Of a stretch of 64,000 nt of DNA, positions 21,601-62,640 are shown in pieces (the stretch's first letter is position 1; the number at the start of each line of letters is the position of its first letter). Position numbers and translations under genes: made by a program. Source of the DNA: Penicillium oxalicum (lineage: Eukaryota; Ascomycota; Eurotiomycetes; Eurotiales; Aspergillaceae); NCBI RefSeq assembly GCF_001723175.1, contig NC_064655.1, positions 248,001 through 312,000 on the forward strand. Direction: 5' to 3'. The notes under the pieces are model-generated. The model ran no database searches. It worked only from the letters and a program-made list of their open reading frames with translations, and was not told the DNA's origin.

Positions 21601-24600
21601 TCAAGCTTTTTGGAAAACCATCACATGTGTTCCAGCATCCTCATCTGAGAGTCCAGTTGTTCCATAAACTCGTTCGTGTGCAACACAGACGAGGCCAGCC
21701 CCTTCCGCCATCTGCTTGAAATGTTGAGGATACGTTTTCTGTTCCACTTCGTAGTCGAGGCCGGCTATGAGGGCTTGTAATTCCAACCACTGAAGTCGCC
21801 AAAACGCGAGTTTTGGATCCGATACCTTAGTTGTGAATCCACGCTGCTCCGTTCGGGAAAGCAGTTCTCTGCACAGGGCTTCTGCATCATCAACACCACC
21901 GATATCAGCATGAAATTTGGCATGTGGAATGGTGTGGTTGTAATCGTCGACGAAGTCCCGTTCCGACGGGGTAAGCATTTCCCTTTCTGCTCCCGACCAG
22001 GGGAAACATAACGGGGTCATATATGCCAGATGGTGTCGAAGCAAATTAAGCATTCGTTCTGTCCGCGTCGTAAATGGAGAGATCATTTCGTCGGCGATAC
22101 ACCAATATCCTCCAGGTCGCAACCACTCTATGCTGCGCTGAAGGAATGCGTCTGTGTTGAAATGATGAGATGCGCCCGTCGACATAATGTAATCAACTCC
22201 TTCGGGTTCCACCGGTAGATTCAGGAAGTCTTCTTGAAGGCATTTGACTCTAGAATTGTTTCTGAAATGGTCTTTGAGATATTGAAAAGCAACGTCACTG
22301 GGCTCAATTGCCAGAATTTCGGTATGCGGCATTAGCTCACAGAATGCAAGAAGGTTGCTGCCGGGACCCGGTCCAACATCCATGGCACGTGAAGAAGGTT
22401 TCGTAATAAACTTGGTGACCATTGTAGCTAAGGCTACCGTTTGGCGAAAATAGGCGGGGTGAACCAGCTCAAAGAAATTGTAATCGTCAACGTTGATTCT
22501 TTTCTCGAATGTTGCTGCTGCGTTCTTGGTGGTTCCGTTGAGATCAATAAAAGCACCGGCCTTTTGTTGAGAGCTTCTGATGGCCTGTGCGGGCAAAGTC
22601 GGCGTTCCTTGGTGGGTCAAGATCTCTGCTGCTAGGGAGGCTAACAGCATACTGTCACCCTGAGCAATGGATAAGAGCTTTGCCATGGCTTTGTTAGCTT
22701 CCTGAGGGGCTATCAAATGGAGAGATCGATTATCGAGTTCGTATGCGAGTCGATACAACGTTTGTGCAGTAGGTTTGGGATGGGTCAGCAAATCCGAAAC
22801 TGCGTCTAGAAGACCACTGTAGGACGATTTGTAAGAGTTGTATCGCCGGGCGGAAAGCATAATAAGCACGGGTTCGTCATTCTGCAACCAGTAACACTGG
22901 ACAGCCCAATGATACGGACCAGTGAGTGCCTTTGCTAATCCTTGAGCCGCGAGAGCTCGAAGTGAGACCGCGTCCAGGTCGTGATTGGTGGTAAAGATAA
23001 CTTTCTCGGCAGCAATACCATTGCTGATTCCAATGAGTGATTGACGAATTTGTTCAGACAAATCATCCGATGACAACATGTCTACATTGATGATCTTGCT
23101 TCCCCTGTGAATCGCCACAGCTGGAGAATTTCTTCCAAGCGGATGGAGGTTTGGAACACACTGCTGATTTATAGCCTTGCTGAGTTCTCCTAATGCATTT
23201 CCCTCAAACAGAGTGTGATGGGTTGTGCTAACATGGTGTACCTGCAACAGCGGATAGTTGTTGGCCCACCATTGAGAAACCCCAGATTTCAGTGTGTCAT
23301 TTGTTGAAACATAGAGACCCCTTCCGCGGTATTTCGGCTGTCCCCTCAGGCTCAGCATCAGCGGGCCAAGCTTTGTGAAGTGTTGCTGAACGTACACCCT
23401 TTGGTCATGCCCGAAAAGCTGAAGACCATGTTGGAGCTCGTCATCAATGGCAGTGGGATCCAGCTTGCTAATATCTGTGACTTCGTAGATCCCAGGATCT
23501 AGCAAAACGACGGATTTTAGATTCGCAGCGTGCCATTCACACCACATTGAAGCCATCTTTAAGGCGATCAAAGCTCCGGAAGAGTATCCACCGAGAATCA
23601 CGCAGTGATCTGACGGCACGTGTTCCTTGAGAGCTGTGAGATAAAAGACTGCCCAGTCATATACTGTCTGCGGCCCTTGTGGCCGCCCAAAGAAAGGATC
23701 GTGTACAATCAAGACATTGAGGGCGTCATGCAACATGGGAACCAGTCCTGCGAAGACACTTCCTAATCCCCAGAAGCCGTGTATCAGAATCAAAGTCGTA
23801 CGGTTGTTGTCCCGGGCGTGCAGCTCTAGGTACGAATGTGACATTCCAGGATCAAAGCCATTAGTAGCTCGGAGATTGATCTCCTGGCACAATTCTTCTG
23901 GACTGGAGTGCCGATAGAGGTCGCGGAGAATTAGATTGCAATGCAAGCGTGTGTTGATTCTAGAGAGTAGGCGTGTGGCCATGAGAGAGTGGCCGCCGAC
24001 ATCGAAGAAGTTATCTGTGATGCCAATCTCGAAGCCTAAAACCCCGGCGAATTCTTCACAGATGGCCCGCTCCTTGTCGGTTCGGGGAGGAACTACCCGG
24101 CGAGAATCTTGGACTGTGGCTGTGTTCGTCATTAATGCCGCAAGCGCTCGCCGGTCAACCTTTCCGTTCGCATTGAGAGGCATCTCATCCAAGACCCTAA
24201 TCCGTGACGGAATCATGTACGCTGGTAGCACAGCACGTAGGGCGTTACGAAGTAGCGTTTCCAGGTCTTGGTATAGTCCGAAACCAACCTGCGGTATCGT
24301 CAAATATTGCTCTGCAGTAATCCGACGTGTATCGGCAGAGTATACTGAGGTATTGTAGCGGTGGACAGTAACAAATGCGACCAGTTCAACATCACCTTCC
24401 AGCTCTCGGGCCATGGCGGCGGCATCGCTGACCAAATCCTCTCGTAGTAAAGAGTCCTCCACTTCTGCCAGCTCGACACGGTGCCCGCGTATCTTGACCT
24501 GGTGGTCCATACGCCCGAAGAACTCGAGCTCGCCGTCAGTAGGCCGATAACGCACACGGTCTCCAGTTCGATAAACTCGTATGAGCTGTCCGTTGATTTC

Positions 24601-27600
24601 AAGATGAACGAATCTGTCAGTATCTAGTGCCGGATCGGTGTATCCTCGAGCCAATCCATCACCGGTTACGACAAGTTCGCCCATCACGCCAAGCGGGACA
24701 AGTCGATGCTGCGGATCCATGACAAATGCACCAGAATTGCTGATTGCACGACCAATAGGAACTCCGTTGACATTGTTTCCATGACGCGGGATAACGTAGA
24801 ATGTGCTTGAGGTTGTGTTTTCGGTAGGCCCATATGCATTGATGAACTTCCCTTGAATAAACATCCTTGCCTCGGTGGCATCACGATGGTCCAAACGGTC
24901 GCCCGCCGAAACAAGGGTAGTGATTCCAGTAAGGAGATTGGGAATGTGCCTAAGGAATTGCTTCAGCAGAGCTGGTGTGAACATAGCAGCCTTGACTCCC
25001 TGTTCCTTTAAGACACGACCCAAGGCATGGACATCCAAAAGAGTTCTATGATCAATACAGACCAGCGTGCCGCCGTTGAGGAGCGCCATATATATTTCCC
25101 ACGTCGCATTATCAAACGCAATGTTGGTGATATGGGCTATGGGAACGGCTGCTTGAGCTTGTGTCATCACGTTGGTGTTTTTGACCAGCCGTACAATACC
25201 GCGGTGCTCTACCATCACTCCCTTGGGCCGGCCGGTCGACCCCGAGGTAAACATGACGTACGCGAGGCTTGTTGCGGACGGTTCGGGGCGCACAATGTTA
25301 TTGGTGCTGGTGGCTCTGCCAGGGTGGTCGAGGGTGTTCGCAATAGGGAGAAACTCGACATCGGTAAGCGTTAAGACTGGGGCCGTCACTCCGGCACCTA
25401 GTAGCACGAGCTTGGGACCGACAACGGTGGATAAGATGCTTTCGATACGCCCAGGCGGCACGTTGACATCCAACGGCAGGTAGGCGAGGTTGGCCTTGAG
25501 ATACCGAGGAAGGCGACGATGGTCTCACACGATCGCGGAGCGAGCACTCCGACCATGGTCTCTGGGCGGAGTTCCTGTCGAGCCAGCCAGTCGGCCAGGC
25601 GATCGGATTGAGCGTCCAGTTCCGCGTATGTGAGCTGGGAGGAGGCGTCCTTGACTGCGACCGTGTTGGCCGAGATGGCAGCCTGTTGGCGGAACAGAGC
25701 CGGCACGCTAGAATCGCGTGGATAGTCTGTACGGGCCACTTGGGTGAGGCCCATGTCAGCGAGAGCGGCAAGGCCGCGTGTTAACGGCACAGTCGCAATA
25801 GAGACGGTCGGGTCTGCGAGACCGCGCTCGAGGATCTCGAAGAAGACGGAAGTTATGCAGTGGATCGACGAGGCGTCGAAAAGATCAGTCGCGAACAGGA
25901 CTTGACCGCGTACGCAATCGTTTTGTTGGAAGAAATTGAACTCGAGGTCAAACCTGGACGTCTTTGTTTCTCCTACAGAGTGTGTCTCCAACCCACGAAT
26001 CTGAAAGTTGTTGATATTTTCCTGGGCGTTAAAGGAGATGATATTTTGGACGAGAGGATTTCGAGAAAGATCGCGAGGCCCTGGTCGACATTCTGCGACG
26101 ATTCGATCGAACGGTACGTCTTGATGTGCGGCCGCTTCTGCGGTTGTGAGCAAAACTTGTCGGACAAGAGCTTGGAAGGATTCATCTTTAACCGTCGTCC
26201 TGATGCATTGTAAATTAACAAAGAAGCCGATGATGTCTTCTAGCTCTTGTCGATTGCGACCGTTACTTAAAGTCCCGATTGTGGCATCTTCAGCGCCCGT
26301 GAGGCGGTAGTGCGTCGCCCTGAAGGCAGCGAGAAGCACCGCAAATGGCGTAGCCTGCGTCTTCTTGCAGAATTGCTCGAGGCTGCGGTACAGCACACCT
26401 TCGATTGCGACCTCATGCACCTCGGCCACGCCGGACAGCGCGGTAGGTCGAGGCTTATCATTCAGGAACTCAGCTGGCTGGCTCCCATCCAGCTGCCGCT
26501 TCCAGTACTCTAGCTGCCGTTGGTGTTCAATTGTCTGCTCCGTTTGCTTCTGCCATACCGCAAAGTCCTTGTATTGAATAGGCAGGGGATGCACCTGTGA
26601 CAGCGGATCTTGGCCACGGACAGCGGCCGAGTAGAATTTCGACAGCTCACGCTGGAGAATGTCTAGCGACCATCCATCGGAGATAATGTGGTGCATGACT
26701 ATGGAGAGGACGTGATCGTCCTCGGCAAGACGGAAGATCGCGGTCCTCCATCCGGGCTCGGTCTCGAGCTTGAAGGGGGTGGTATGTTCCTGATGGAGGG
26801 TTTGTGTCAGGGTCTCCCAGCTACCGCCGGGTATCGGGATGACCCTTGCCTGCTTAGGCGCGAACTCGTGGATGACCTGCAGGTCCACACCATCTCGGTG
26901 CATGAAGGTGGTCCGTAGCGGCTCGTGGCGTTCCTCGAGGGCCAGTAACGCCACGTTCAGCGCATCTAGATGGAGTGGCCCGCGTAGACGCGTGGCAAGG
27001 GGCACCAGATACCACGTTGATTCTGGATACAAGCGATCGATGAACCAGAGACGGCCTTGTGCGAACGACTGCTCTACTGGTCCGTCGACGTGACTTCGCG
27101 GAATAGAGATGTACTTTGTTTCTCCAAGTGATTGACCCGCTTTTGCGGCCAAATCTGCCACGATTGGGCACGCGAACACATCTCTGACGGTGAGGGAAAC
27201 GTCTAGCCGTCGGTTGATCCGCGATACCACGCGAGTGGCCATAAGCGAGTGACCGCCGAGATCGAAGAAGTTGTCTGTTAGGCCAACCTCCATCCCTAGA
27301 ACATGGGCAAACTCTTCACATAGCGCTCGCTCTACGGGCGTCTGCGCCGGGACAATGCTGCGCGGGCCCTTGTTCTCCGAGAGGGTGAGTGCGAGCTGTT
27401 GCAATGCGCGGCGGTCGACCTTCCCATTTGGATTTAGCGGCATGCTGTCCAGAACGGTGATCCGCGACGGGATCATGTATGACGGCAACGTGGCCTGTAG
27501 AGCACATCGTAGGTAGGATTCAATCTTTTGGGTCTCTTGCCGCCGTAGTGGTCGATTCGTGAATGAGCCTGCGGGCCTGCCTTGGTGGTCCGTCTGGAAT

Positions 27601-30600
27601 TGGAATAATGGACGCTGGCCTTCTACACGGTGGAAAATGGCGTCAAGGGCGCCCCGTAGCGAACTTTGACGAGCCCAGCTGAGCTCGACGCGAAACCCTG
27701 CTGCCTCCGCTAGCTCCGATATATCATAGGCCGATAGCGCAGGGCAGCATCGCGCTGATGCGCGAACTGCTGCCAGCCAGTCTGCTTGGTCCTCCGCTGT
27801 TTCATCGTTCACGCCATCGTCCAGCACTTGTGCTAAATGCCGTTCAAGGACAGTCTTGCTGTAAGGGATGTTACTCACAGCTACAAGGTCCGATGCTGAG
27901 GAGTCGTGTAAGAGGCGTAGGAGTCCCGTGCGGTTAAGGTGTTCAGCTTGGAAGTCAGTCCACATTCCACTGCTAATATCACGGACTAGTCGGGGTGGCC
28001 CATCATAGCGCCTTAAATATATCACAGCAGCGAAGCGATAGCAGCTCAACTCATTCGTTGCTTTCATTCGTTTCGGTAGAATCTCGACATGCTCAATTCG
28101 ATCGGGGAAGCGGCTCAGTAGGCTTGTGAAAAAGCCCGGGTCAATGAGCAGCTCTTCCTCGGTCTCCTCAATCGTCGCCATATTGCGCCGCATATCCGAC
28201 TTTGTAGCTCTGTCACCTAGAGTGTGTAGGGACTTGCTGACTTTGAATTCTCGATATAAGGCAAGGGAGCGTATATCGCCGAAAAATATGCGCTCTACGG
28301 TCTTTAGCCGAAGAATACTCTCCACCGTGTTGAGGAGATATTGGGCGCTAGAGAAGTACTGTGCCACCGAATTGACAATCACGAGATTGGGAGACACCAG
28401 GGGGCCTAGTTTCCCAATATCTGCAGCCGTACCAACTCTAATGTCGACTTTTTCTGCAAGGCTAGGATCGGCGCTAGCGACGTTGGCGACGAAGGAGACG
28501 GCCGCTGCAGACGGGTCAAGCCCAACATAACATTGAAGGTGTTCTGCGAGGTTGAACAGGATCATGCCAGTGCCTGTTCCGATTTCGAGGACGTTTTCCA
28601 GTGGCCCGGTCGCCTGAATGGCTGCAATGGTCTCGTCTAGCCACTCATTCATCTGGGCCCGGTCGATCGGCTCTCCATCGTACATCGACTTCCAACCCAT
28701 GAAGTCTCTACCAAGACGGTTGGTTGTGATGGTATCAATTTTCGCATAAGTGCGGTTATCGAAGAGGCTCGTCCATGCCCGGATTTGCTCTCCCTCATCA
28801 TTTTTCCCGCAAACATTCTCCTCCTGTTCTGGCTGCAAGGATGCCACTTCCCAGTCGATGGTGACGAAGCTGATTAATTCTGATTCTGTACCCCGTACTG
28901 CGTGGGCTAGAACAACAGCATCTTTGACCAGACAATCGTTTACCAATGTATGCTCCACCTCGCCCATTTCGATGCGGTGACCACGGATCTTGACCTGATA
29001 GTCCATGCGCCCGAAAAATTCAAGCTGAGCGTCACGCGGTCGGTATCGGCCGCGGTCCCCAGTGCGATATGCCTTCACTCGTCTTTCGTTGACCTCAATA
29101 TGTTGAAATCGTCCCTGATCCAGACTCGCATCGGTATAACCCCGGGCTACTCCGTCACCTATGAGAACAATTTCTCCCATCACTCCTAACGGCACGACCT
29201 GCTGCCTTGGGTCCATGACCAGTACCCCAGAGTTACTTATCGTACGACCAATCGGGACGTTGTCCACAATCGCATCGCGTCTTGAGATGCGATATATAGC
29301 AGTATAGCCCGTGTTCTCTGTATTGCCGTAACAGTTCAGAACACTGCCTTTAACCAATCGTTGTGCGTTAAAGGCATCCTGGGTCCTGAATATCTCGCCT
29401 CCGATAATCAAAACATCCAATGCGCGAAGTGCGGAGGGCATTTCATCAATCAATTGCCTCAGGAGGGAAGGGGCGCAGTACATGGCAGTGATTCCTTCTC
29501 CCAGGAATACCCGGCTCAGACAGACTGGGTCCAGCACTGTCATATGATCAATGCAGATAACCGTGCCGCCGTTGAGGAGGGCTGCATAGATCTCCCATGT
29601 CGCTGCGTCAAAGGCCAGATTGGCAATATGGGCTATGGGAACGGCTGCTTGAGCTTGTGTCATCACGTTGGTGTTTTTGACCAGCCGTACAATACCGCGG
29701 TGCTCTACCATCACTCCCTTGGGCCGGCCGGTCGACCCCGAGGTAAACATGACGTACGCGAGGCTTGTTGCGGACGGTTCGGGGCGCACAATGTTATTGG
29801 TGCTGGTGGCTCTGCCAGGGTGGTCGAGGGTGTTCGCAATAGGGAGAAACTCGACATCGGTAAGCGTTAAGACTGGGGCCGTCACTCCGGCACCTAGTAG
29901 CACGAGCTTGGGACCGACAACGGTGGATAAGATGCTTTCGATACGCCCAGGCGGCACGTTGACATCCAACGGCAGGTAGGCGAGGTTGGCCTTGAGGATA
30001 CCAAGGAAGGCGACGATGGTCTCACACGATCGCGGAGCGAGCACTCCGACCATGGTCTCTGGGCGGAGTTCCTGTCGAGCCAGCCAGTCGGCCAGGCGAT
30101 CGGATTGAGCGTCCAGTTCCGCGTATGTGAGCTGGGAGGAGGCGTCCTTGACTGCGACCGTGTTGGCCGAGATGGCAGCCTGTTGGCGGAACAGAGCCGG
30201 CACGCTAGAATCGCGTGGATAGTCTGTACGGGCCACTTGGGTGAGGCCCATGTCAGCGAGAGCGGCAAGGCCGCGTGTTAACGGCACAGTCGCAATAGAG
30301 ACGGTCGGGTCTGCGAGACCGCGCTCGAGGATCTCGAAGAAGACGGAAGTCATGCAGTGGATCGACGAGGCGTCGAAAAGCTCGTTCGAAAACATAACAT
30401 AACCATGCATATGGCTATCTTGTTGAAAAAAGTGAAACTCAAGATCAAATCTAGACGTTCGTGTCTCGCCTACCGACTCCGTATCAAGCCCGGCAAGTCC
30501 AAGTTTACCAATGTTCTGTTGAGAGTGGACGGCAAACACAGATTGTACCAATGGATTACGCGACAAATCCCGGGCGCCTGGCCGGAGTTCCGCAACAATC

Positions 30601-31748
30601 CTCTCGAAGGGTACATCTTGATGCGCGGCTGCTTCTGCAGTAGTAGACAGGACTCTTTGAACCAAGGTTTCGAATGTTTCCTCCTCTACCGTGACACGGA
30701 TGCATTGAAGGTTGACGAAGAATCCAATGATGTTCTCTAGTTCTTGTCGATTCCGGTTCGCGACCGGCGTACCGATCGTGGCATCTTCAGCGCCCGTGAG
30801 GCGGTAGTGCGTCGCCCTGAAGGCAGCGAGAAGCACCGCAAATGGCGTAGCCTGCGTCTTCTTGCAGAATTGCTCGAGGCTGCGGTACAGCACACCTTCG
30901 ATTGCGACCTCATGCACCTCGGCCACGCCGGACAGCGCGGTAGGTCGAGGCTTATCATTCAGGAACTCAGCTGGCTGGCTCCCATCCAGCTGCCGCTTCC
31001 AGTACTCTAGCTGCCGTTGGTGTTCAATTGTCTGCTCCGTTTGCTTCTGCCATACCGCAAAGTCCTTGTATTGAATAGGCAGGGGATGCACCTGTGACAG
31101 CGGATCTTGGCCACGGACAGCGGCCGAGTAGAATTTCGACAGCTCACGCTGGAGAATGTCTAGCGACCATCCATCGGAGATAATGTGGTGCATGACTATG
31201 GAGAGGACGTGATCGTCCTCGGCAAGACGGAAGATCGCGGTCCTCCATCCGGGCTCGGTCTCGAGCTTGAAGGGGGTGGTATGTTCCTGATGGAGGGTTT
31301 GTGTCAGGGTCTCCCAGCTACCGCCGGGTATCGGGATGACCCTTGCCTGCTTAGGCGCGAACTCGTGGATGACCTGCAGGTCCACACCATCTCGGTGCAT
31401 GAAGGTGGTCCGCAGCGGCTCGTGGCGTTCCTCGAGGGCCAGTAACGCCACGTTCAGCGCATCTAGATGGAGTGGCCCGCGTAGACGCGTGGCAAGGGGC
31501 ACCAGATACCACGTTGATTCTGGATACAAGCGATCGATGAACCAGAGACGGCCTTGCGCGAACGACTGCTCTACTGGTCCGTCGACGTGACTTCGCGGAA
31601 TAGAGATGTACTTTGTTTCTTGAACCGACTGGTTGACCTCGCGAAATGAATGGTTGAGCAGCCGGTCATCGTCATCGCTAATTCCCAGGTTAACAAAGCT
31701 ACTTGGAGGCTGTAAATGAGAACCTTGGCCTTCCTCGATCTTCAGCAT
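21601..31748 (-). CDS. Two-module NRPS, C-A-nMT-T-C-A-T-TE-MT, with frameshift
   Basis: ATG at 31748, stop at 21601. Domains in order (nt, descending): C1 31620-30380 with HHIISDGWS; A1 from 30260 with FTSGSTGRPKG (29745) and YRTGDRGRYRP; N-methyltransferase about 28860-27560 with VLEIGTGTGM, inserted between A8 and A10 (NPNGKVDRRAL, 27430); T1 with DLGGHSLMA (27250); C2 27123-25883, also HHIISDGWS; A2 to 24110; T2 with DVGGHSLMA (23990); TE with GYSSG (23590) and a later HH; a linker of about 220 aa; then a class I SAM methyltransferase with AMDVGPGPGSN (22370). The style is that of fungal N-methylating synthetases (enniatin/aureobasidin group). It should activate two amino acids, N-methylate the first, and release by TE. 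Each A domain has a complete-looking core. One base is missing between 25500 and 25501 in the module 2 copy of a repeated segment, splitting the frame (31748-25398 and 25473-21601). This is either an assembly error in the repeat or a true null; both sides look under constraint, so I favour one gene. Confidence 0.9.
25130..25883 (-). repeat. NRPS repeat block 1, module 2 copy
   Basis: Counterpart of 29626-30380. It lacks one G of the forward-strand run CTTGAGGATACC at 25500/25501, which shifts the reading frame of A2 within the GILKANLAYLP region. Confidence 0.9.
26281..27123 (-). repeat. NRPS repeat block 2, module 2 copy
   Basis: Counterpart of 30778-31620 at a constant offset of 4497. It is separated from block 1 by about 400 bp of diverged C-domain C-lobe. 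Confidence 0.9.
29626..30380 (-). repeat. NRPS repeat block 1, module 1 copy
   Basis: About 755 bp nearly identical to 25130-25883. It covers the C-A linker and the N-terminal A subdomain through core A3. Similarity stops just before the FDxxTW motif of the substrate pocket and, upstream, at the end of the C domain. Only one substitution (30003 A against 25506 G) and one indel were seen. Confidence 0.9.
30778..31620 (-). repeat. NRPS repeat block 2, module 1 copy
   Basis: 843 bp nearly identical to 26281-27123, covering the N-lobe of the condensation domain, including HHIISDGWS, up to EDATIGT. The C-lobes that follow are clearly diverged. I noticed two or three substitutions only. Confidence 0.9.
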
Positions 31749-31855
31749 GATGCCAATCTAAGCGGTCTGACTTCGTTTCTGAGATTTGAAAATTGAAATA
31801 TATTGAAGATTTTTAAGTCGTTGTACCCCCCTATTCCTGGGCTCACATCTCCCGC

Positions 31856-37491: not shown

Positions 37492-38019
37492 GAGATCGAA
37501 ACGAATGTCTTGAAGTTTTAACAATGTAACGTTTATTCAAGATTATGATAAAATATGTCGAGTAGCAGGCAGCAAGAGATGTAGATGATTGTGTAATGAG
37601 CACTCGAGAGGGTAAGATCTTTTTTATGCTAAAAGAGCAATATATTGCATGGAAATGTATTTGACATGCCCTGTATACGAATCTAATAGACTGACACACG
37701 TATGACAAAGCAGAATACCTTACGGGAAGTCACCTATCACTTGAGAAGCCTGAAATTGACATTTGTGGGGCTATTTGCTTGCCACCGCTTGATCTCAGTA
37801 TAGTCAACCTGTGTAGAAGCGGTACATCGGAATAAGACACAATCCCGAGGTATGTTGCTAAAAGGAATTGATACGTACTGTACTGAAATTGATAGGTAGC
37901 GGTTTGGATAGCTGCCTAGGATTGAACGTACGGCTGGTCGGTTGAGTAAAATGCATGGGTGAAATGCAAAGCATCGGGATTACAATGATTCAAAGTTCGC
38001 ACGTGCTTGGCTAGAGTGA
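37492..38019. other. Intergenic, upstream of arrestin-like gene
   Basis: AT-rich flank containing the presumed promoter of the arrestin-like gene. Nothing else recognised. Confidence 0.4.
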
Positions 38020-38370
38020 ATATGCACTTGGTCGGAATGCAATGCACTTGGTCGGCATGAATATGCACTTGGTCGGCATGAATATGCACTTGGTCGGCAT
38101 GAATATGCACTTGGTCGGCATGAACATGCACTTGGTCGGCATGAACATGCACTTGGTCGGCATGAACATGCACTTGGTCGGCATGAACATGCATTTGGTC
38201 GGAATGCAATGCACTTGGTCGGCATAATATGGACTTGATCGGAATGAAATGCACTCGGTCGGCATAATATGCATTTAGTCGGCATGAATATGCACTTAGT
38301 CGGAATGCAATGCACTTGGTCGGCATGAGTATGCACTTGGTCGGAATAAAATGCACATGGTCGGCATGAG
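38020..38370. repeat. 21-bp minisatellite, about 17 units
   Basis: Tandem units of ATGCACTTGGTCGGCATGAAC, 20-21 bp long. The central eight are nearly perfect (38050-38200); outer ones vary (CTTGATCGGAATG, TTTAGTCGG, CATGGTCGG). Because the unit is mostly a multiple of three and stop-free, all three minus frames stay open (heptads MPTKCMF, HADQVHV, CRPSACS), which makes spurious ORFs up to 146 aa. No start context or homology supports translation. Confidence 0.9.
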
Positions 38371-38455
38371 CGCAAAGGGTGCATTATTTCTAGCCAATTA
38401 CGATACGCAGGCCGTCGGGATATTTTGACTATCGTAGGTTACGTACTAGCTTGAA

Positions 38456-59721: not shown

Positions 59722-62640
59722 TCATACGCTATGCAGGGGATTGTGTTCTGAGAGTGCGAGGAATATGACACGACCTGATGAACAACCGATTGCCACAGTT
59801 GTTGCAGATATAGCAAATAAAGAGGGCTTAGCAGGCCGATATTCTGCAGGCAACCACAACAGGTTGAACCCATTATAGGTTATCCATGAAGAGTCATCAC
59901 TTAAGCCATACCCATAAGTTCCTGTCAAACGATGGGGGCTGGACGCACCAGGGTTGGTGGATTTTAGGTTTATTGTATCGACCTTCGTGCGAAGAAGATT
60001 TGACTCGGTTCTATCAAATTGGAGGAAGTAAGGAAAGCGAACCTCAATGGTAGATGTTCCCTGGCCGGTGGGTGAATCCCAAACTGTCACTGTCATATCA
60101 TCCGACGCTGATACGAGTCGGCTGCCATCTGTCGACCAAGCGATCAACGTGGCAAGGCCAGTATGTCCCTCGAGGATATACGTGCATTCGCCAGTGGCCG
60201 GATTTCAAATTCTGACGGTATTATCAACCGAGGCGGATGCGAGCTTGCTTCCATCTGGCGACCAGACAATTGATTTAATCCAGTCACTATCACCCGCGAG
60301 GATACACGCGCACTAGCCAGTGGCCGGATCCCAGATTCTAAGAGACTTATCTTGCGACGCTGATGCAAGTCGTTTTCCATCTGGCGACCATGCGATTGAT
60401 CGGGCGGAGCCACTATGCCCCTCGAGGATAGATATGCATTCACCGGTGGCCGGATTCCAAATTTTGATGGTTTTGTTATCCGACGCGGATGCGAGCTGGC
60501 TTCCGTCGGGCGACCAGGCAATTGTGCTGATTTGTTCACTATTCCCCTCGAGGGTTGATTCCAGCTGGCCGGTGGTCGGATCCCAGATCCTAACAGCCTT
60601 TCTGAACGATACTGATGCAAGTCGGTTTCCACTTGGTGACCAGGCGATCGTGCGGACTGAGTCACTGTGCCCCTCGAGGCTTGATTCGGGTTGGCCAGTG
60701 GCCGGATCCCAAATCCTGACAGTTCTATCCCCTGACGCGGATGCGATGCGGCTTCCATCGGGCGACCAGGCGATTGACCAGATAGAGTCACCATGGCCCT
60801 CAAGGGTTTGAAGACACGAATTCCAAGTCTCATCTACCACTGGGCTATTCATGACCCACCCAGGTTTCTCAATTTGGTAGATTGTCCTCGTGGTACTTTG
60901 AGTCGGGCTGAAGATAAGGGCTGCATTATATACTTGAAGCGGACAACATTCAATTCCTTGTCTGTGGTATCGGATGAATCGTGATGCGTCTTGGATTTTG
61001 TCTAATTGGGCCCGGTGCTCGCCTTTCTCCTATAAATATTACCAGGTGAGGAGAGGAAATTACCTCAACATTATAACAATCACTTACCTGCAGTAACTCT
61101 TCAAGCTTCAGCATAGCCGTTATACCTCGAGATAAGCTTCGCAAAATACTAAGAGCTTCTAGCAAATGAAGATATTTCTGTCCCGGAAAAGAGCACAGAT
61201 ACTCTCCATTTTGAGGGCCGTGGTTTTCGTCATCATCACGCCAACCTGCCTGAAGGTGATCAACCCAGTACAGACACGCCTATCTTACGCCTGCTAAAGG
61301 ATCTGGGCTAGGTTGTGTGACTTCCTCAATCGCCATTCCAACAAACTTTATATCAAAGATATTACGCCGAAGCGTCTTGAATAACGATTGTAGAGATCGT
61401 GAGAAGATAGCATAATGCTCAGCTTCTCTACCTTTGGCAAAGAGTTTATCTTGCGACATTTCGAGCAGAAAATCTTTTGCGGACTGATGGATGAAAACAA
61501 TAACGTTCTCATGTAATGTCAGGAATGAGCCGCAAGTTGCGATAATCTCCAGTAAATCTTCTTGGTCATCAGAGAGATCATCAGGTGTCTCAATCAGGGT
61601 GGCCAGTTCAGGAAGGGCGATCGGCTGATACACTATTGACATGACAGCCAGTATTCGCTTGCAGAGCTCAGCATCTTCCGACTTCCGAACCTGATCAATC
61701 ATTCGGCAGTATAATGCATCCAGTCCAGGAGGGAGCTCGTTAAGTTTCTTCAGGACATGCCTCCTCGATGTTCGGCTGAGATCTTGACAAACCAGGGCCA
61801 CCCAGAGGAAAGTGCCCTGCGAGTTTCCCAACATGTGACCGCTGACAATATCACGGACTTCATCTTTATATTTTTTGACTTTTGTCAACTGATCAACCTT
61901 ATGCTGAATGAACTTTCTTACAGCGTCAGATACAGATGCCTCATTTAGTTCCAATGAAATCGGCGCTGTCTGAGCTGCAGTATCCAGATGTTCTTCAGTA
62001 TCAGGCCAGTTACGGCTTGAGACAATCCACTTCACGTGCGAGTGGGTGGACGATTCCCGAACAATCAAGTCCAGAAGGAAAGGGAGATCTGTTATGCACT
62101 CGTCCAGCGCATCGTTCACCAAATAAATATTCTGTAAAACCGGATCTCTCAATATATCGGTGAAGATTTTCGAAAGGACATTCCATGCGTTTATGTCCTT
62201 AAACAGCGTCTTTCCCGCTTGGTCGTACCGGCTCCGTACATGGGAGGGAAGAGTTGGCCGTTTCTGAATTAACGAATATATCAAGCCACGGAGGACGGCT
62301 GTGGCGTTATTGATTCGCACATCAGTAGCTTGGCAGAAAAAAAAGATATATTCGTCGTATCCCCGCCGATACATTGGGTCAATTCGTCGATGATGCCGCA
62401 CAGAAGCATTGTTTTGCCTTTGCCGGGGTCTCCCCTGATCCATAGGAGACGACTGCTCTGGTTGTCCTGCCATTGTTTGAATTCTTCGTTGTCAAAAATC
62501 CAGCAATATGAGTCTTTCAGCAACCCTCCATTGGTCTTTTCAATACGGTCTTTATCATCGTAACGGTTTGTTGTTCGTAGATCTCGTAAGCACGCCTGAT
62601 TCAATGACGTTTCCGATTGTGCTGAGGCAATCGCACCAAT
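59722..62640 (-). pseudogene. NACHT-WD40 (NLR-like) protein, interrupted
   Basis: Minus strand: DLRTTNRYDDKDRIE and WIRGDPGKGKTMLLCGIIDE (P-loop, about 62430); a one-base loss in a T8 run near 62340; YLVNDALDEC (Walker B, about 62110); NACHT helices to a TAG at 61280-61282. The same frame then runs on (YWVDHLQAGW...), passes a GT-AG intron near 61090-61030, and enters WD40 repeats of the type [17 protein letters not shown]...VRIWDPATG. These are broken by TAG 60313-60315 (where GQ is expected) and TGA 60205-60207 (where IW is expected), ending at 59722. No ATG was found upstream of 62640, so the effector N-terminus is missing. Intact relatives are STAND NTPases in heterokaryon incompatibility/immunity. 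Confidence 0.75.

Follow-up and report, generated by a model that had tools for sequence, protein, structure and literature searches.

A 64,000-nucleotide stretch of Penicillium oxalicum DNA (the window, to whose positions all coordinates refer) carries on its minus strand a fungal non-ribosomal peptide synthetase (NRPS) whose thioesterase (TE) is not its terminal domain, since a further N-terminal domain (N-domain) and a methyltransferase (MT) continue in frame behind it. The synthetase is covered by two overlapping open reading frames (ORFs). The downstream one (21601-25524) is stop-free over 1307 codons and was found by Pfam to contain the order A2-T2-TE-MT, where A is an adenylation and T a carrier domain. 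The upstream one (25398-31757) holds C1-A1-nMT-T1-C2 and the start of A2, C being a condensation domain and nMT an in-module N-methyltransferase. Together the two ORFs make up a two-module fungal NRPS, C-A-nMT-T-C-A-T-TE, with the MT unit as its tail. An earlier reading of the sequence alone (the sequence-only reading) had proposed the order T2-TE-MT, and this agrees with the Pfam search of the single downstream frame; the interval then assigned to it, 21601..23150, covers the N-domain and the MT, but T2 and TE lie outside it at approximately 23.17-24.07 kb.

Domain layout and the methyltransferase unit

The features of the synthetase, in order of translation, are as follows.

30279..31565 (borders approximate), minus strand: C1 condensation domain (PF00668 matches two stretches of ORF 25398-31757, and the C2 match served to infer the border)
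29136..30191, minus strand: A1 adenylation domain (PF00501, residues 520-871)
27519..28751, minus strand: in-module N-methyltransferase region (Methyltransf_12 at residues 1054-1146, and PDB chain 5wmm)
27144..27326, minus strand: T1 carrier domain (PF00550, residues 1475-1535)
25782..27068, minus strand: C2 condensation domain (PF00668, residues 1561-1989)
25398..25524, minus strand: overlap of the two NRPS reading frames, with the switch at the start of A2 (ORF list; within a repeat tract)
24640..25500, minus strand: A2 adenylation domain, portion in the downstream frame (PF00501, residues 9-295)
23881..24066, minus strand: T2 carrier domain (PF00550, residues 487-548; GGHSL at 23983-23997)
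23167..23808, minus strand: TE (phmmer to the NocB TE, motif positions, Abhydrolase_6)
23581-23583, 23497-23499 and 23218-23220, minus strand: Ser, Asp and His of the TE (phmmer alignment with the NocB TE)
23110..23157, minus strand: true TE-MT joint, ~16 residues long (gap-free but poorly conserved between fused homologues; low model confidence)
22558..23100, minus strand: N-terminal domain of the MT family, formerly read as a linker (full-length standalone homologues and AlphaFold2 models; an alpha/beta part, then a helical part)
21604..22491, minus strand: class I S-adenosylmethionine (SAM) methyltransferase domain with a helical lid (stop codon at 21601-21603)

A 214-residue phmmer alignment (E 1.5e-08) pairs the TE with that of NocB and brings Ser, Asp and His into register, and Pfam places an alpha/beta-hydrolase/TE match at residues ~577-717 of ORF 21601-25524. 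This match scores slightly too low for PF00975 (24.9 bits against a cut-off of 26.4) and for Abhydrolase_1, but slightly exceeds the cut-off of Abhydrolase_6 (26.9 vs 26.3 bits). The C-terminal MT is matched by Methyltransf_25 at residues 1048-1139, above the cut-off (E 3.3e-12). The in-module nMT scores slightly below the Methyltransf_12 cut-off (28.7 vs 30 bits) and matches the NRPS chain 5wmm with an E-value of 4.4e-30. The C-terminal MT has 37 matches, none of which is this chain, and the similarity between the two methyltransferases of the synthetase is not significant by BLASTP (E 0.34), which bears out the earlier view that they are distinct.

The ~220 aa between TE and MT had been taken for a linker of unknown fold, a description that has to be dropped, as full-length homologues and an AlphaFold2 model assign the region to the family of the MT itself, in which it is the N-terminal part. 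A profile search for relatives of the N-domain and MT, covering proteins of ~273-870 aa, returned 81 matches. Among these, 14 standalone relatives of 503-577 aa align across 100% of the unit with 61-74% identity, and six of them have fungal names (Pyrenodesmia, Monosporascus, Polycauliona and three Aspergillus). Such standalone fungal proteins, for example P0004 of Pyrenodesmia and P0013 of Aspergillus terreus, have the full N-domain and MT in common with the window protein, but in their deposited models lack the fusion to an NRPS. A further 11 standalone relatives align over 96-100% of the unit at 34-37% identity, two of them with names (Anaerobacterium and Nostoc). The MT unit of the window keeps the family-conserved residue in 85 of 86 columns. 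The AlphaFold2 model of the unit, built from an alignment of 32 sequences (the window and 31 of the 81 proteins), has a mean predicted local distance difference test (pLDDT) score of 86.1 and a predicted template modelling score (pTM) of 0.88, and the N-domain modelled alone has a mean pLDDT of 88.4. The N-terminal part is predicted to be folded, with pLDDT below 50 just at residues 1-16 (the joint) and 203-219 of the modelled piece. Judged by these homologues, the former linker and the MT are one family of ~500 aa, of which fungi and bacteria also have members that are separate proteins. No characterised member of the family was found.

The joint and the origin of the fusion

A search with residues 810-1307, covering proteins of ~720-2290 aa, gave three proteins. 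P0001 (P. viridicatum) and P0002 (metagenomic) carry the fused tail of the window protein at 74-75% identity, while P0003 is a helix-turn-helix (HTH)-cupin-MT protein. A search of long proteins added P0084 of Penicillium oxalicum (3362 aa), which is 100% identical to the window over the N-domain and MT and has the same C-A-nMT-T-C-A-T-TE-MT order. P0001 shares A-T-TE-N-domain-MT with the window protein (74% identity overall, 83-86% in the MT). The fused proteins found besides that of the window number only three, one of them this identical copy, which may come from the same organism. Both P0001 and P0084 have TE-MT at their ends, yet carry the label 'Beauvericin nonribosomal cyclodepsipeptide synthetase BEA1'. 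Beauvericin-type synthetases have a terminal C domain, which is lacking from the P0084 order, and the BEA1 name looks automatic and wrong.

Strict phrase matching in the open-access literature found no fungal NRPS with the TE-MT order, and within that literature the earlier statement that no characterised fungal NRPS is built in this way stands. The single TE-MT label encountered in print is a table entry that describes Pflav_013340 of Phytohabitans flavus as ACP/TE-MT (ACP, acyl carrier protein; PMC7692728). By this label it resembles the window protein in having an MT behind a TE, but it is a bacterial polyketide synthase.

Between the fused homologues the joint is poorly conserved, with 4/16 and 5/16 identities (25-31%) and 0 gaps, and the domains flanking it are 67-88% identical to those of P0001 and P0002, with the exception of the P0002 tail, which diverges (9/21 with 163 gaps). 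The MT has no separate reading frame of its own in the window, and no Met occurs in the 24 window residues spanning the joint. In six of the 15 standalone rows (P0004, P0005, P0008, P0009, P0012 and P0019), the start Met corresponds to a position occupied by Val in the window, in P0001 and in P0002; eight of the other rows begin farther upstream and one is a fragment. These results uphold the fusion claimed by the sequence-only reading over a separate MT gene. That two genes were joined in annotation or assembly could be imagined, given that standalone versions of the MT are common among the matches, but it is highly improbable in view of the stop-free genomic frame across the join, the equal length of the joint in P0001 and P0002, and the Val at the standalone start position.

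In a tree of 42 rows, three of which are fused (window, P0001 and P0002; P0084 was left out, being identical over the unit), the fused sequences form a single clade with support 100/99. This is nested within a clade of 17 fungal rows (100/100), and rows labelled bacterial or HTH fall outside it. Because the three fused sequences form one clade, a single fusion event is likely, and is the simplest reading of the tree.

Predicted role of the fused methyltransferase

The fused MT is predicted probably to methylate either the completed peptide or one of the components of that peptide. The nearest solved folds to the C-terminal MT include CysG and BelI, with other MTs close behind. CysG and BelI are metal-dependent carboxyl O-methyltransferases of the cystargolide and belactosin pathways, respectively. 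The window MT and these enzymes have class I cores related by sequence and fold, and a His-His pair is present in both. The latter enzymes, however, are small, lack the N-domain, have a short lid and an Asp as third metal ligand, where the window MT may have Glu, and act on malate derivatives. Two features of the window MT belong to the predicted metal site.

22162..22167, minus strand: His1120-His1121, corresponding to the His-His that binds metal in CysG/BelI (phmmer and hhalign alignments)
21742..21744, minus strand: Glu1261, candidate third metal ligand where CysG has Asp (position inferred from a residue count backwards from the AGF/AGL motif)

The two His columns contain His in 32/32 and 31/32 sequences, and the pair is present too in two of 15 other MT loci and in a further structural neighbour, the uncharacterised MM_2633. 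The Glu1261 column is Glu in all 31 sequences that reach it, the 32nd being a gap, and the scored alignments pair no residue of this column with the CysG Asp.

The sequence-only reading had raised methyl-esterification as one possibility, and the resemblance of the MT to CysG and BelI lends this indirect support; the reading that we tentatively favour is a metal-assisted methyl-esterification of the TE-released product. The NRPS would have acquired a complete MT of ~500 aa, comprising the N-terminal alpha/beta-helical domain and the class I SAM domain, in frame behind its TE. The N-methylated peptide would be set free by the TE, and the fused MT, positioned beside the exit, would then methylate it by a CysG/BelI-like, metal-assisted carboxyl O-methyl transfer. 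The outcome would be a peptide methyl ester, either as the final product or as a masked intermediate. If so, this would be a new route for an assembly line to end a peptide as a methyl ester, and genome mining which assumes that the TE settles release would mispredict the chemistry of such synthetases.

A different atom of the peptide (N, O or C), carrier-bound or released, might be methylated instead. This is unlikely, as N-methylation is already served by the in-module domain, and the structural neighbours aligned with the His-His pair, CysG and BelI, are carboxyl O-methyltransferases.

The bacterial relatives suggest another role. A scan of genome contigs identified 16 bacterial loci, all proteobacterial by organism names, in which the same N-domain and MT are fused to an XRE-HTH(-cupin) regulator (identity mostly 31-41%). 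A conserved ORF follows the HTH-MT gene at 13 of these 16 loci, and nine have a second one; in L016, one of the three loci without the first ORF, the contig ends inside the MT. These ORFs are AzlC and AzlD by Pfam at L005, the locus tested, and two Cereibacter plasmids are annotated with the AzlC/AzlD pair. The metagenomic protein P0035 is a fusion in which the MT unit precedes an AzlC exporter domain. AzlCD pairs are branched-chain amino acid exporters. The bacterial proteins have the N-domain and MT in common with the window protein, but are regulator-fused and stand beside amino-acid exporters. No function was found for the bacterial HTH-MT-AzlC/AzlD operon. Because the bacterial MTs adjoin AzlC/AzlD, the usual substrate or product of the family may be amino-acid-like. 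The fungal NRPS tail, the standalone fungal enzyme and the bacterial regulator-MT-exporter operon are hereby joined as one family with a testable substrate class.

As the main alternative, the fused MT could act before assembly, methylating a free amino or hydroxy acid that one of the synthetase's own A domains then loads. The neighbouring exporters and the MT-AzlC fusion of P0035 speak for it, as does a passage on KK-1, where deletion data led the authors to infer that tyrosine is methylated by a separate O-methyltransferase ahead of its loading (PMC10512319). It is, however, not obvious what would be gained by placing an MT of this kind behind the TE, and we regard this role as somewhat unlikely.

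That an MT of an amino-acid-export-linked family was captured as a release-coupled, metal-assisted carboxyl-capping domain, with the N-domain perhaps as a new docking or substrate-presenting module, is a doubtful elaboration of the methyl-ester reading.

The bacterial loci L002-L017, L020 and L022 have the arrangement XRE-HTH(-cupin)-N-domain-MT, then AzlC and AzlD in most. At L022 (on a plasmid of Cereibacter sphaeroides), an HTH gene and the MT gene are separated by IS21-family transposase genes, which gives the look of an interrupted HTH-MT gene.

The NRPS is not one uninterrupted frame, its two ORFs being in different frames and overlapping at 25398-25524, a switch that had escaped the sequence-only reading. 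Because the frames split inside a near-identical internal repeat, this copy of the NRPS may be broken or mis-assembled. The gene could be decaying in this strain, interrupted at the A2 start, with the TE-MT half unmade or made without the upstream part. Besides the two overlapping frames, such decay would be in keeping with the gene models of P0084, which omits a short A2 stretch at the frame switch, and of P0001 (1280 aa), which is without the upstream modules and the A2 front, and with a passage on thiamyxin biosynthesis, whose authors consider the domains behind the TE to be non-functional (PMC10100342). It is nevertheless quite improbable, as the downstream codons are stop-free and all but one of the conserved MT residues are retained, while the switch sits where the DNA matches module 1 at 99-100% identity and assembly errors can arise, and P0002, with the same tail, is read through this region in a single frame.

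Modules 1 and 2 have two tracts of 99-100% DNA identity, at ~25.2-25.8 and 26.3-27.0 kb, with their counterparts 4.5 kb upstream. The second tract runs to the end of the compared range, and a stretch of 56-78% identity lies between both. Recent gene conversion, a duplication or an assembly effect could each account for them.

Surroundings in the window

Two features lie upstream of the NRPS.

~41.7-45.1 kb, plus strand: ABC-transporter ORFs
46.7-48.7 kb, minus strand: fungal transcription-factor ORF

No oxidase was seen among the ten window ORFs scanned, four of which have no Pfam match, and small spliced genes could be missed. Because the scanned ORFs show no oxidase, the synthetase itself may hold much of the tailoring.

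A tandem repeat at 37916-38438 on the minus strand reads as short repeated protein units in two frames that overlap. At 61283-62491, also on the minus strand, there is an NPHP3/NACHT-like ORF, adjoined at 59.7-61.0 kb by ORFs that are WD40-like by eye; it is a probable fungal gene of the NOD-like receptor (NLR) type.
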